This document shows positions 36,641 through 39,025 of a stretch of 64,000 bases of DNA, in pieces. The stretch is from Arthrobacter caoxuetaonis. Its GTDB lineage: Bacteria > Actinomycetota > Actinomycetes > Actinomycetales > Micrococcaceae. The notes beneath the pieces are model-generated. The model was not told the DNA's origin, did not search any database, and saw only the letters and a program-made list of their open reading frames with translations. The translations under genes were made by a program, and so were the position numbers. The DNA lies in assembly GCF_023921125.1 (NCBI RefSeq), contig NZ_CP099466.1:3472001-3536000 (forward strand). The letters run 5' to 3'. Within the stretch, counting starts at the first letter, position 1, and every line of letters begins with the position of its first letter.

Positions 36641-38023
36641 CTAGAAGCCGGAGCCGCCTTCGACGGCCATGTTGGAGAAGCGTGAATAGTGGCCCTGGAA
36701 GCCCACGACGATCGTCTTGGTCGGACCGTTACGGTGCTTGGCCACGATCACGTCTGCTTCACCGGCGCGCGGGGATTCCTTGTCGTAAATGTCTTCACGG
36801 TGCAGCAGGATCACCATGTCGGCGTCCTGCTCGATCGATCCCGATTCACGGAGGTCGGAGACCATCGGCTTCTTGTCGGTGCGCTGTTCGGAACCACGGT
36901 TCAGCTGGGACAGCGCGATCACGGGGACGTCGAGCTCCTTGGCGAGCAGCTTGAGGGCACGCGAGAACTCGGAGACTTCCTGCTGGCGGGACTCCACCTT
37001 CTTGCCGGACGACATCAGCTGCAGGTAGTCCAGGACCACCAGTTTGAGGTCGTGCCGCTGCTTCAGCCGGCGGCATTTTGCCCGGATCTCCATCAGGGAC
37101 ATGTTCGGGCTGTCATCAATGAACAGCGGGGCGTCGTTCATCCGGCCCATGGTGGTGGCAATCTTGCCCCACTGCTCATCCTTGATGGTGCCCTTGCGCA
37201 GGTCCTGCAGGCCGATTGTTGCCTCGGCAGAGAGCAGGCGCATGGCGATCTCATTGCGGCCCATTTCCAGGGAGAAGAACACGGTGGTCATGTTGTTCTT
37301 GATCGCCGCGGAGCGGGCAAAGTCGAGTGCGAAGGTCGACTTACCCACGGCCGGTCGGGCCGCGATAACGATCATCTGGCCGCCGTGCAGGCCCTGGGTG
37401 AGTTCATCGAGCTCGTAGAACCCGGTGGGGACGCCGATCATGCCTTCGCCGCGGTGGCCGGCGGACTCGATCTCATCGACGGTGCCTTCGATGATGTCCT
37501 TCAGCGGAACATAGTCTTCGGCTGTCCGGCGTTCTGCCACGGCATAGACCTCGGCCTGCGCCGCGTTGACGATGTCGTCAACCTCCATGCCGTCGCTGGA
37601 GTAGCCCAGCTGGACGATCTTGGTTCCCGCGTCCACCAGCCGGCGCAGGACTGCGCGTTCCCGGACGATCTCCGCGTAGAAACCGGCATTTGCGGCGGTC
37701 GGCACGGACTGGATCAGCGTGTGCAGATAAGCGGGACCGCCAATCCGGCCGATTTCACCGCGTTTGGTCAGCTCATCCGAGATTGTCACCGCATCCGCTG
37801 GTTCGCCGCGGCCGTAGAGGTCGATGATGGCCTCGTAGATGGACTCATGGGCGGGGCGGTAGAAGTCCACCCCCCGCAGCACCTCGACGCAGTCGGCGAT
37901 CGCGTCCTTGGAGAGCATCATGCCGCCGAGGACAGACTGCTCGGCTACCAGGTCCTGCGGCGGAGTGCGGCCAAAATCGGAGTTGCGGGTCGATTCAGCG
38001 GCATCCGCCTGTGCAAGCGACAC
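36641..38023 (-). CDS. dnaB: Replicative DNA helicase DnaB
   Basis: Hexameric helicase that unwinds DNA ahead of the replication fork. The N-terminal domain opens with RTPPQDLVAEQSVLGGMML. The RecA-like domain has Walker A RPAVGKST (223-230), Walker B KLVVLDYLQLM and RESGSIEQDADMVILLHR. At 460 residues there is no intein. I take the GTG at 38021-38023, with AAAGG about nine bases upstream; the open frame to 38188 is not family-like. It is separated from rplI by 552 bases that hold a DnaA-box cluster, so it probably has its own promoter. Confidence 0.95.
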   Translation of the reverse strand: MSLAQADAAESTRNSDFGRTPPQDLVAEQSVLGGMMLSKDAIADCVEVLRGVDFYRPAHESIYEAIIDLYGRGEPADAVTISDELTKRGEIGRIGGPAYLHTLIQSVPTAANAGFYAEIVRERAVLRRLVDAGTKIVQLGYSSDGMEVDDIVNAAQAEVYAVAERRTAEDYVPLKDIIEGTVDEIESAGHRGEGMIGVPTGFYELDELTQGLHGGQMIVIAARPAVGKSTFALDFARSAAIKNNMTTVFFSLEMGRNEIAMRLLSAEATIGLQDLRKGTIKDEQWGKIATTMGRMNDAPLFIDDSPNMSLMEIRAKCRRLKQRHDLKLVVLDYLQLMSSGKKVESRQQEVSEFSRALKLLAKELDVPVIALSQLNRGSEQRTDKKPMVSDLRESGSIEQDADMVILLHREDIYDKESPRAGEADVIVAKHRNGPTKTIVVGFQGHYSRFSNMAVEGGSGF

Positions 38024-38221
38024 TATGGCCACCCTTTCCAAAAACGTTAGATCCATGGACCCGTCCGGCGGGCGCCCGTGTTGGCAGGACTGACTCAGTC
38101 CTAGCAGGCGGCACTGACAGCACCTCGCGCGCGGCACCGCCCTCGCCGCAACCATTTCCGGGTGCACCAATGAGGGAGTCCACCGCAACCGTAGCCCCGT
38201 ATGGCTGCCTCAACAAACGAG

Positions 38222-38470
38222 TTGTCCACAGGCCGTGTGGATACCGTGTGCATAACTGGGCGTGTCTTGTGCACAGGATGGGTATAAGGCTGTGGATAAC
38301 AAAATAGTTTTGCCCAAAACAAGGCTGTGACTAGGCGTTATGTTCGTCCACACCTGTGTATGACCACCTTTTTTGGTCAACATTCACCCTCAACCTTCAG
38401 GTTGACACCGGCAGGAAACGGGCATATGGGGCCCTTTATCCACAGTCGATATCCACATACTTGTGGAATT
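38222..38470. promoter_or_regulatory. DnaA-box cluster (origin-like) between dnaB and rplI
   Basis: Within 250 bases I count about nine DnaA-type boxes. Matching TTRTNCACA: TTGTCCACA 38222-38230 (+), TTATGCACA 38247-38255 (-), TTGTGCACA 38267-38275 (+), TTATCCACA 38291-38299 (-), TTATCCACA 38436-38444 (+). One mismatch: 38236-38244 (-), 38344-38352 (+), 38355-38363 (-), 38449-38457 (+). A two-mismatch copy lies at 38462-38470. Between the groups are AT-rich stretches (38295-38320, 38364-38380) and an inverted repeat TCAACC-TTCA-GGTTGA (38390-38405). No dnaA or dnaN is in the window. The rest of the 552-base gap (38024-38575) holds no gene. Confidence 0.8.
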
Positions 38471-38519
38471 ACTGGCGCTACTTAGGAAAGGAAGCCTGCG
38501 AAGCATTCCCCAAGCACGC

Positions 38520-38554
38520 AAAAACGCCCCCCGCCACAGGCGGAGGGCGTTTTT
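38520..38554 (-). terminator. Intrinsic terminator after rplI
   Basis: A GC-rich stem flanked by A5 and T5 tracts: AAAAACGCCCCCCGCC on one side and GGCGGAGGGCGTTTTT on the other, with a short ACA loop. On the minus strand it lies 22 bases after the rplI stop and ends in a run of T, a textbook Rho-independent terminator for the rpsF-ssb-rpsR-rplI transcript. Its symmetry would also block read-through from the other side. Confidence 0.9.
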
Positions 38555-38575
38555 CATCACGCTGTGCGCAACGTA

Positions 38576-39025
38576 CTAGCTGGCAACGACCTCGAGGTCG
38601 ATGACGGCTGCGACGTCGTCGTGCAGGCGGACGTTGGCCTGGAAGGAACCAACCGACTTGATGTGCGTCGGCAGTTCAACCTTGCGCTTGTCGATGCTGC
38701 CGAGGCCGGCGGCCTCAACAGCAGCGGCAACGTCAGCGGGCTTGACCGTACCGAAGAGGCGTCCGGACTCGCCGGCCTTGACGGTCAGCTTGACCGGCTT
38801 GGCGGAGAGAGCAGCGGCCTGCTTCTGGGCATCTTCCAGCGAAGCGTGCTCGCGCGCGGCGCGGGCAGCCTTGATGGACTCAACCTGCTTTTCGCCGCCC
38901 TTGGTCCAGGTCAGGGCGAAACCGCGGGGCACCAGGTAGTTACGTGCGTAACCATCCTTTACCTCGACGACGTCACCTGCAGCACCGAGACCGGTTACTT
39001 CGTGGGTCAGAATGAGCTTTGCCAT
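38576..39025 (-). CDS. rplI: 50S ribosomal protein L9
   Basis: Large-subunit protein bL9, which binds 23S rRNA near the L1 stalk and helps maintain the reading frame. The 149-residue product has the signature [22 protein letters not shown] at the N-terminus, the long connecting helix, and a C-terminal domain ending [15 protein letters not shown]. It is the last gene of the rpsF-ssb-rpsR-rplI operon, 18 bases after rpsR, with a terminator just downstream. Confidence 0.97.

Follow-up and report, generated by a model that had tools for sequence, protein, structure and literature searches.

A conserved cluster of DnaA boxes upstream of the helicase gene dnaB in Arthrobacter caoxuetaonis and other Actinomycetes is a predicted control region of the dnaB promoter

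The stretch of DNA analysed here (the window; 64,000 nucleotides of Arthrobacter caoxuetaonis) corresponds to positions 3472001-3536000 of the 3,555,050-base contig C1. It contains an intergenic array of DnaA boxes that an earlier note, made from the letters of the window, placed between dnaB and rplI. Pfam confirms both flanking genes, and both lie on the minus strand. The features of the region are listed below, with boxes scored against TTRTNCACA and offsets given from the -35-like motif.

36641..38023, minus strand: dnaB, replicative DNA helicase (Pfam DnaB N- and C-terminal domains)
38023, minus strand: probable GTG start of dnaB, chosen from GGAAAGG upstream; the mechanical ORF extends to 38188
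38188..38193, minus strand: -10-like TACGGT (TANNNT), 164 nt upstream of the probable dnaB start
38211..38216, minus strand: -35-like TTGTTG, 17 bp from the -10
38222..38230, plus strand: promoter-proximal DnaA box TTGTCCACA, exact, 5 bp from the -35
38236..38244, minus strand: DnaA box GTATCCACA, one mismatch, start 28 bp upstream of the -35
38247..38255, minus strand: DnaA box TTATGCACA, exact (motif scan)
38267..38276: DnaA box TTGTGCACA (exact, plus strand) overlapping CTGTGCACA (other strand), offsets 59 and 60
38279..38287, minus strand: near-match TTATACCCA, one mismatch (motif scan)
38291..38299, minus strand: DnaA box TTATCCACA, exact, offset 83 from the -35
38323..38335, minus strand: CCTAGTCACAGCC, weakly aligned with the non-box element GCAGGTCAGAG of many relatives
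38344..38363: near-matches TCGTCCACA (38344, plus strand) and TCATACACA (38355, minus strand), one mismatch each
38367..38378, minus strand: A-tract GACCAAAAAAGG, with A/T tracts at the equivalent place in several relatives, by eye
38436..38457, plus strand: distal boxes TTATCCACA (38436, exact) and ATATCCACA (38449, one mismatch)
38523..38551, minus strand: terminator-like hairpin 3' of rplI (fold and pattern scan)
38576..39025, minus strand: rplI, ribosomal protein L9 (Pfam Ribosomal_L9_N and _C)

The box nearest the promoter-like motif (38222..38230) and the next one (38236..38244) form an inverted pair separated by 5 bp. At the rplI end of the gap, the fold of positions 38515-38562 has an energy of -31.8 kcal/mol (z -5.64), while the pattern scan for a hairpin followed by a T-run recovers 38523-38551 at a rate no better than in shuffled sequence (1 versus 0.8). 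A structured RNA in the gap was considered and rejected, both of the two Rfam matches falling under the gathering score (E 0.04 and 0.38).

Five exact matches to TTRTNCACA fall within 223 bp of the rplI-dnaB gap, the number given in the earlier note, and they occupy both strands as it had described (plus: 38222, 38267 and 38436; minus: 38247 and 38291). Its figure of about nine boxes in 250 bases is a fair one, the count at up to one mismatch being 11 distinct starts (38222-38449) in 250 bp. The window as a whole holds eight exact boxes, five of them in this gap, and the 3.93-Mb genome holds 88, against 42 for the motif read backwards. From the genome-wide number about 0.005 exact boxes are expected per 223 bp; the Poisson probability that a given 223-bp stretch holds at least five is about 3e-14, a value uncorrected for the number of places. 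When one mismatch is allowed, the maximum per 250 bp is 11 in the gap, 2 in the remaining window, 3 in ten sampled 20-kb genome stretches, 10 in the dnaA-dnaN gap and 13 in a cluster near C1:16 kb. At least three exact boxes within 500 bp are found at only three places in the genome, namely the dnaA-dnaN gap (C1:1804-1979, three exact boxes), C1:16162-16614 (seven) and the rplI-dnaB gap (C1:3510222-3510444, five), and these counts contradict an equal density at random sites. The AT-rich stretches mentioned in the earlier note are also present: positions 38201-38480 have a GC content of 49%, and a 40-bp minimum as low as theirs (0.325) is reached in 0.6% of the 280-bp blocks sampled from the genome (710 blocks, presumably coding for the most part).

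The gene dnaA, which the earlier note had reported absent from the window, lies with dnaN and recF at the start of C1 (C1:228-5727; dnaN and recF by Pfam) and has a box cluster of its own. The opposite end of C1 carries rpmH, parA and parB (Pfam), along with yidC, rnpA and others recognized by eye, and because dnaA/dnaN/recF lie at one end and rpmH/parA/parB at the other, C1 is probably circular. The rplI-dnaB cluster is 44.6 kb from the end of C1 and, if C1 is circular, about 46.5 kb from the dnaA-dnaN gap. It is thus a multi-box cluster near oriC but outside the dnaA-dnaN neighbourhood, and the possibility raised in the earlier note that it is simply the known oriC does not apply, since the oriC-type genes and their cluster lie at that distance. 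GC skew, sampled in 12 stretches of C1 and 8 bins of the window, is weak and irregular, with several sign changes that include one at approximately 32-40 kb of the window; being weak and changing sign at several places, it neither supports nor excludes a second origin.

The relationship of the boxes to the two flanking genes was examined in other genomes. A query with RplI returned 80 loci, mostly from Micrococcaceae (81 including the window). In 45 of the 81 dnaB lies within 4 kb of rplI, and the other 36 were excluded from the gap counts. The comparison of this gap across Micrococcaceae, which the earlier note had proposed, places the boxes next to dnaB: 151 exact boxes lie within 750 nt of dnaB (32,090 bp) versus 3 in the other 75,935 bp of the rplI-dnaB gaps. 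Where extra DNA parts the two genes the boxes accompany dnaB and not rplI, and a cluster tied to rplI is therefore unsupported by these 45 loci. The 36 excluded loci contain 38 boxes downstream of rplI, distributed over 14 loci (143,825 bp over all 36). In 10 of these 14, a box group or single box falls in the final 0.75 kb of the retrieved sequence, as would be expected if dnaB lay just past its end; loci L063, L080, L087 and L089 depart from this arrangement, as do single boxes in L048 and L052. On the other side of rplI, five loci (L019, L020, L062, L075 and L078) carry an exact box, or two, some 1.5 kb upstream of the gene (near 2445-2492), which by position is at or close to the beginning of the rpsF-ssb operon. 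A similar array upstream of dnaB is also seen in L054 (JABBNV010000030.1, labelled as an Acidobacteria MAG), whose RplI is 85% identical to that of the window and which is perhaps a mis-binned Micrococcaceae contig.

The association extends across the class. Among the 246 genomes searched, 244 have dnaB, and 80 from 31 families were sampled among those listed with coordinates, the genome of A. caoxuetaonis being left out. In total, 132 exact boxes lie in the first 1 kb upstream of the DnaB domain (80 kb), whereas the adjoining upstream 158 kb contain 2; the corresponding counts for the motif read backwards are 6 and 2. At one mismatch the densities are 3.62 versus 0.23 boxes per kb for the dnaB-upstream 1 kb and the next stretch. 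Of the 80 genomes, 63 have one or more exact boxes in this 1 kb, 41 two or more and 18 three or more, and 22 of the 31 sampled families are represented. The 17 genomes with no exact box in this 1 kb include 4 of the 7 from family f10, which we take to be mycobacterial-like, as family f22 appears to be Streptomyces-like; additional genomes from f4 (five) and f10 (four) all have exact boxes upstream of dnaB. Outside the class but within the phylum, an exact box upstream of dnaB is present in 6 of 40 genomes (8 boxes in 39.6 kb versus 1 in 74.6 kb of control sequence; backwards motif, 2 and 3). The box cluster is thus real and conserved in the class Actinomycetes, and the rplI-dnaB gap described here likewise has several DnaA boxes directly upstream of dnaB.

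The boxes also keep their register to a promoter-like motif. Of the 45 loci, 34 have TTGNNN-17-TANNNT within the 420 nt that precede dnaB, compared to a mean of 2.1 and a maximum of 6 in 200 shuffles, while a generic sigma-70 scan calls no promoter at the dnaB motif of the window. Relative to the -35, box starts (at most one mismatch) fall at offset 14 in 12 of the 34 loci, at 28 in 27, at 59 in 29 and at 83 in 21, and at least two of these four offsets are filled in 30 of the 34, a result reached by no locus in 100 shuffles. Because one set of loci served both to choose the offsets and to score them, and the loci are related, this represents a conserved register and not a set of independent events. 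In the f22 loci the two nearest positions are retained (offset 14 in 14/14, offset 28 in 12/14) and the two distal ones are not (0/14 for both 59 and 83), so that boxes stand in a conserved register to the promoter, recognized here as a sequence motif, across related loci, and in f22 for the two nearest boxes only. The strict form, defined as a box (at most two mismatches) followed by 5 bp and then TTGNNN-17-TANNNT, is found in 14 of the 45 rplI-anchored loci (the window and 13 of the other 44) and in all 14 f22 loci; none of the 125 loci shows it in any of 20 shuffled sets. In every case the box belongs to an inverted pair, its two boxes 5 bp apart, of which it is the inner member, and the partner has 0-2 mismatches. 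In the 80 sampled genomes the strict form is absent from the 30 families other than f22, and near variants (gap of 4-5, spacer of 18) occur in f21 (3/3 loci) and f23 (4/4 loci). Inside the array, a non-box element GCAGGTCAGAG and an A/T tract recur in Micrococcaceae and f22 loci at a position equivalent to 38323-38378 of the window; at up to two mismatches the element is present in 25 of the 45 rplI-anchored loci and 14 of 14 f22 loci, with a high control rate of 26 matches in 158 kb.

These observations suggest that the cluster is probably a DnaA-binding control region of the dnaB promoter. In the predicted arrangement the rplI operon would end at the apparent hairpin (38523-38551), followed by the box array, the promoter-like motif (-35 at 38211-38216, -10 at 38188-38193), a leader of about 160 nt and dnaB. 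In A. caoxuetaonis DnaA would occupy the array, including the inverted pair, whose inner end lies 5 bp from the -35 of a presumably active promoter. A protein bound at this distance (box end 5 bp from the -35, centre near -45) can contact RNA polymerase. Transcription of dnaB would then shift with the level or nucleotide state of DnaA, and activation is likelier than repression. The mycobacterial data and the listing of dnaB in the Caulobacter DnaA regulon, both described below, make DnaA activation of dnaB the likeliest mechanism. The array has several boxes and is about 46 kb from oriC, so it would also hold some DnaA and might be a sink of modest size. Of the four roles put forward in the earlier note, predicted control of dnaB by DnaA is the best supported, by conserved placement, promoter geometry and published mycobacterial data; titration is possible given the nearness of oriC, and a second initiation site is unsupported.

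Two further settings bear on this reading. In the A. caoxuetaonis genome, the cluster at C1:16162-16633 has 7 exact boxes and up to 13 near-matches in 250 bp. It occupies the convergent gap that separates a rhomboid protease gene from crgA and so is 3' of both genes (Pfam), a position that makes a promoter unlikely there. Among the best 30 of 245 genomes, 41 exact boxes are found in 30 kb 3' of crgA, with 1 for the backwards motif, and a cluster upstream of crgA was discarded as lying on the wrong side (2 boxes in 35 kb). The other setting is genome G197, the only one found with dnaB more than 139 kb from dnaA (268 kb), in which, with one mismatch allowed, there is still no box in the 1.5 kb that precede the DnaB domain. 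Pairs of boxes are seen in G197 next to a rhomboid gene (453 kb), at 532 kb, and next to a thioredoxin-reductase-like gene (642 kb). The first of these pairs has been kept 178 kb from dnaA, which argues that the rhomboid-side cluster follows the gene and not oriC.

A principal alternative is that the cluster mainly titrates or inactivates DnaA near oriC, as do the B. subtilis or S. coelicolor clusters or E. coli datA, with dnaB as a mere neighbour, which we regard as rather unlikely. The distance from dnaB to dnaA is 22-139 kb (median 36 kb) in the 67 listed genomes with both genes on one contig; in 16 more, dnaA begins the contig and dnaB is close to its other end, and these were excluded from the median. 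The A. caoxuetaonis cluster is about 46.5 kb from oriC. The larger seven-box cluster, some 14 kb away on the opposite side of oriC, occupies a convergent gap where no promoter is expected, and 24 of 30 genomes (the best 30 of 245, our own included) have exact boxes in the 1 kb 3' of crgA. Reviews report clusters near oriC that hold back initiation in B. subtilis and S. coelicolor, and the boxless distant dnaB of G197 is as expected for a sink; this one genome also speaks against dnaB needing the cluster. However, a sink has no need of the fixed spacing between boxes and promoter-like motif, four f10 genomes keep the boxes with dnaB 67-139 kb from dnaA, and the G197 pair stays beside the rhomboid gene far from dnaA. 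With dnaB and dnaA 22-139 kb apart, linkage to dnaB and nearness to oriC are hardly separable. Titration of DnaA by the cluster is possible, and dnaB regulation and a sink may both be present; several boxes of the window lie 60-240 bp upstream of the -35, beyond the need of a simple activator.

The remaining alternatives carry far less weight. A site that reactivates DnaA would resemble the E. coli DARS sites, which are likewise DnaA-box clusters, but nothing specific supports it here and we consider it very unlikely. A second or alternative replication origin is still less credible. Its density of boxes on both strands is origin-like, and the 40 bp at 38283-38322 are approximately as AT-rich as the minimum of the dnaA-dnaN gap (0.325 versus 0.300 GC), yet dnaA, dnaN and recF sit elsewhere with their own cluster of 10 near-matches, so this role was set aside; rpmH, parA and parB at the other end of C1, and the placement of the array at the dnaB promoter-like motif in relatives, argue in the same direction. 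Chance accumulation of boxes, or the plain AT-richness of a promoter region, has a negligible probability: intergenic DNA is AT-rich and the motif is likewise AT-rich relative to its own genome, but the backwards motif of the same composition yields 6 matches against 132 in the same 80 kb, and the box register is kept between species.

Returning to DnaA control of dnaB, a broader version can be put forward tentatively, as a possibility we hold well below even confidence: an ancient switch of the class Actinomycetes in which DnaA beside the dnaB -35 would turn on the helicase, initiator activity thereby setting the supply of helicase, and the array would serve as a sink, doubled shortly after initiation. 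The array and the crgA/rhomboid cluster would jointly constitute a two-sided, oriC-flanking DnaA control common to Micrococcaceae, Streptomyces-like and mycobacterial-like families. If control of dnaB is correct, the way in which an initiator could set the supply of helicase would become directly testable. The DnaA site beside crgA would gain a wider distribution, and its convergent-gap position here suggests a role other than transcription.

A DnaA-bound region upstream of dnaB is of a known kind. In the literature searched, outside which lie most subscription papers (the 2006 Streptomyces study included), we found no publication on the Arthrobacter locus and no description of this promoter geometry for Micrococcaceae and the Streptomyces-like family, and for DnaA boxes upstream of dnaB or the 'dnaB promoter' we found Hicks et al. 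2020 alone. The E. coli datA and DARS loci are likewise non-coding box clusters that act on DnaA; datA and DARS2 function together with IHF, and DARS2 also with Fis (PMC5742627). For Caulobacter crescentus, of a distant phylum, a review lists dnaB in the DnaA regulon, with predicted boxes upstream and a response to DnaA (PMC8203912).

Closer parallels come from systems in which box clusters lie near oriC. The actinobacterium S. coelicolor shares this placement with the locus described here. Smulczyk-Krawczyszyn et al. reportedly described DnaA-box clusters near oriC of S. coelicolor in 2006, and Okumura et al. are said to have described such clusters in B. subtilis in 2012. The helicase gene of B. 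subtilis is dnaC. As in our genome, B. subtilis has clusters outside oriC, some in DnaA-regulated promoters, but the strong sites named in the main text are at other genes and dnaC is unmentioned there (PMC4447404). The Streptomyces-like genome G015 has exact boxes both upstream of dnaB and 3' of crgA. In that genome four exact TTRTCCACA boxes lie in about 310 bp at C1:4406103-4406414, 96 kb from dnaA, and 18 of its 60 exact matches fall within 4.406-4.559 Mb, around dnaA at 4.502 Mb. Among the mycobacterial-like genomes, the seven f10 loci have few exact boxes and are without the strict form of box, 5 bp and promoter motif. If Rv0011c is crgA, four of the five published M. tuberculosis DnaA sites are matched here (oriC, rpmH-dnaA, the dnaB gap and Rv0010c-Rv0011c), the exact boxes at C1:109 and C1:244 being the rpmH-dnaA counterpart. 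In M. tuberculosis, one of the five DnaA sites most enriched by IDAP-seq lies upstream of dnaB, DnaA regions of M. smegmatis were examined by ChIP-seq, and weaker DnaA binding upstream of dnaB was linked to lower dnaB expression in mycobacteria, according to Hicks et al. 2020 (PMC7738170). The dnaB-upstream context is the same in M. tuberculosis and M. smegmatis as in A. caoxuetaonis, with binding experiments there and sequence alone here. If DnaA control of dnaB is correct, the mycobacterial observation would apply to a large part of the class, and harmless, tractable relatives would offer a defined promoter geometry.
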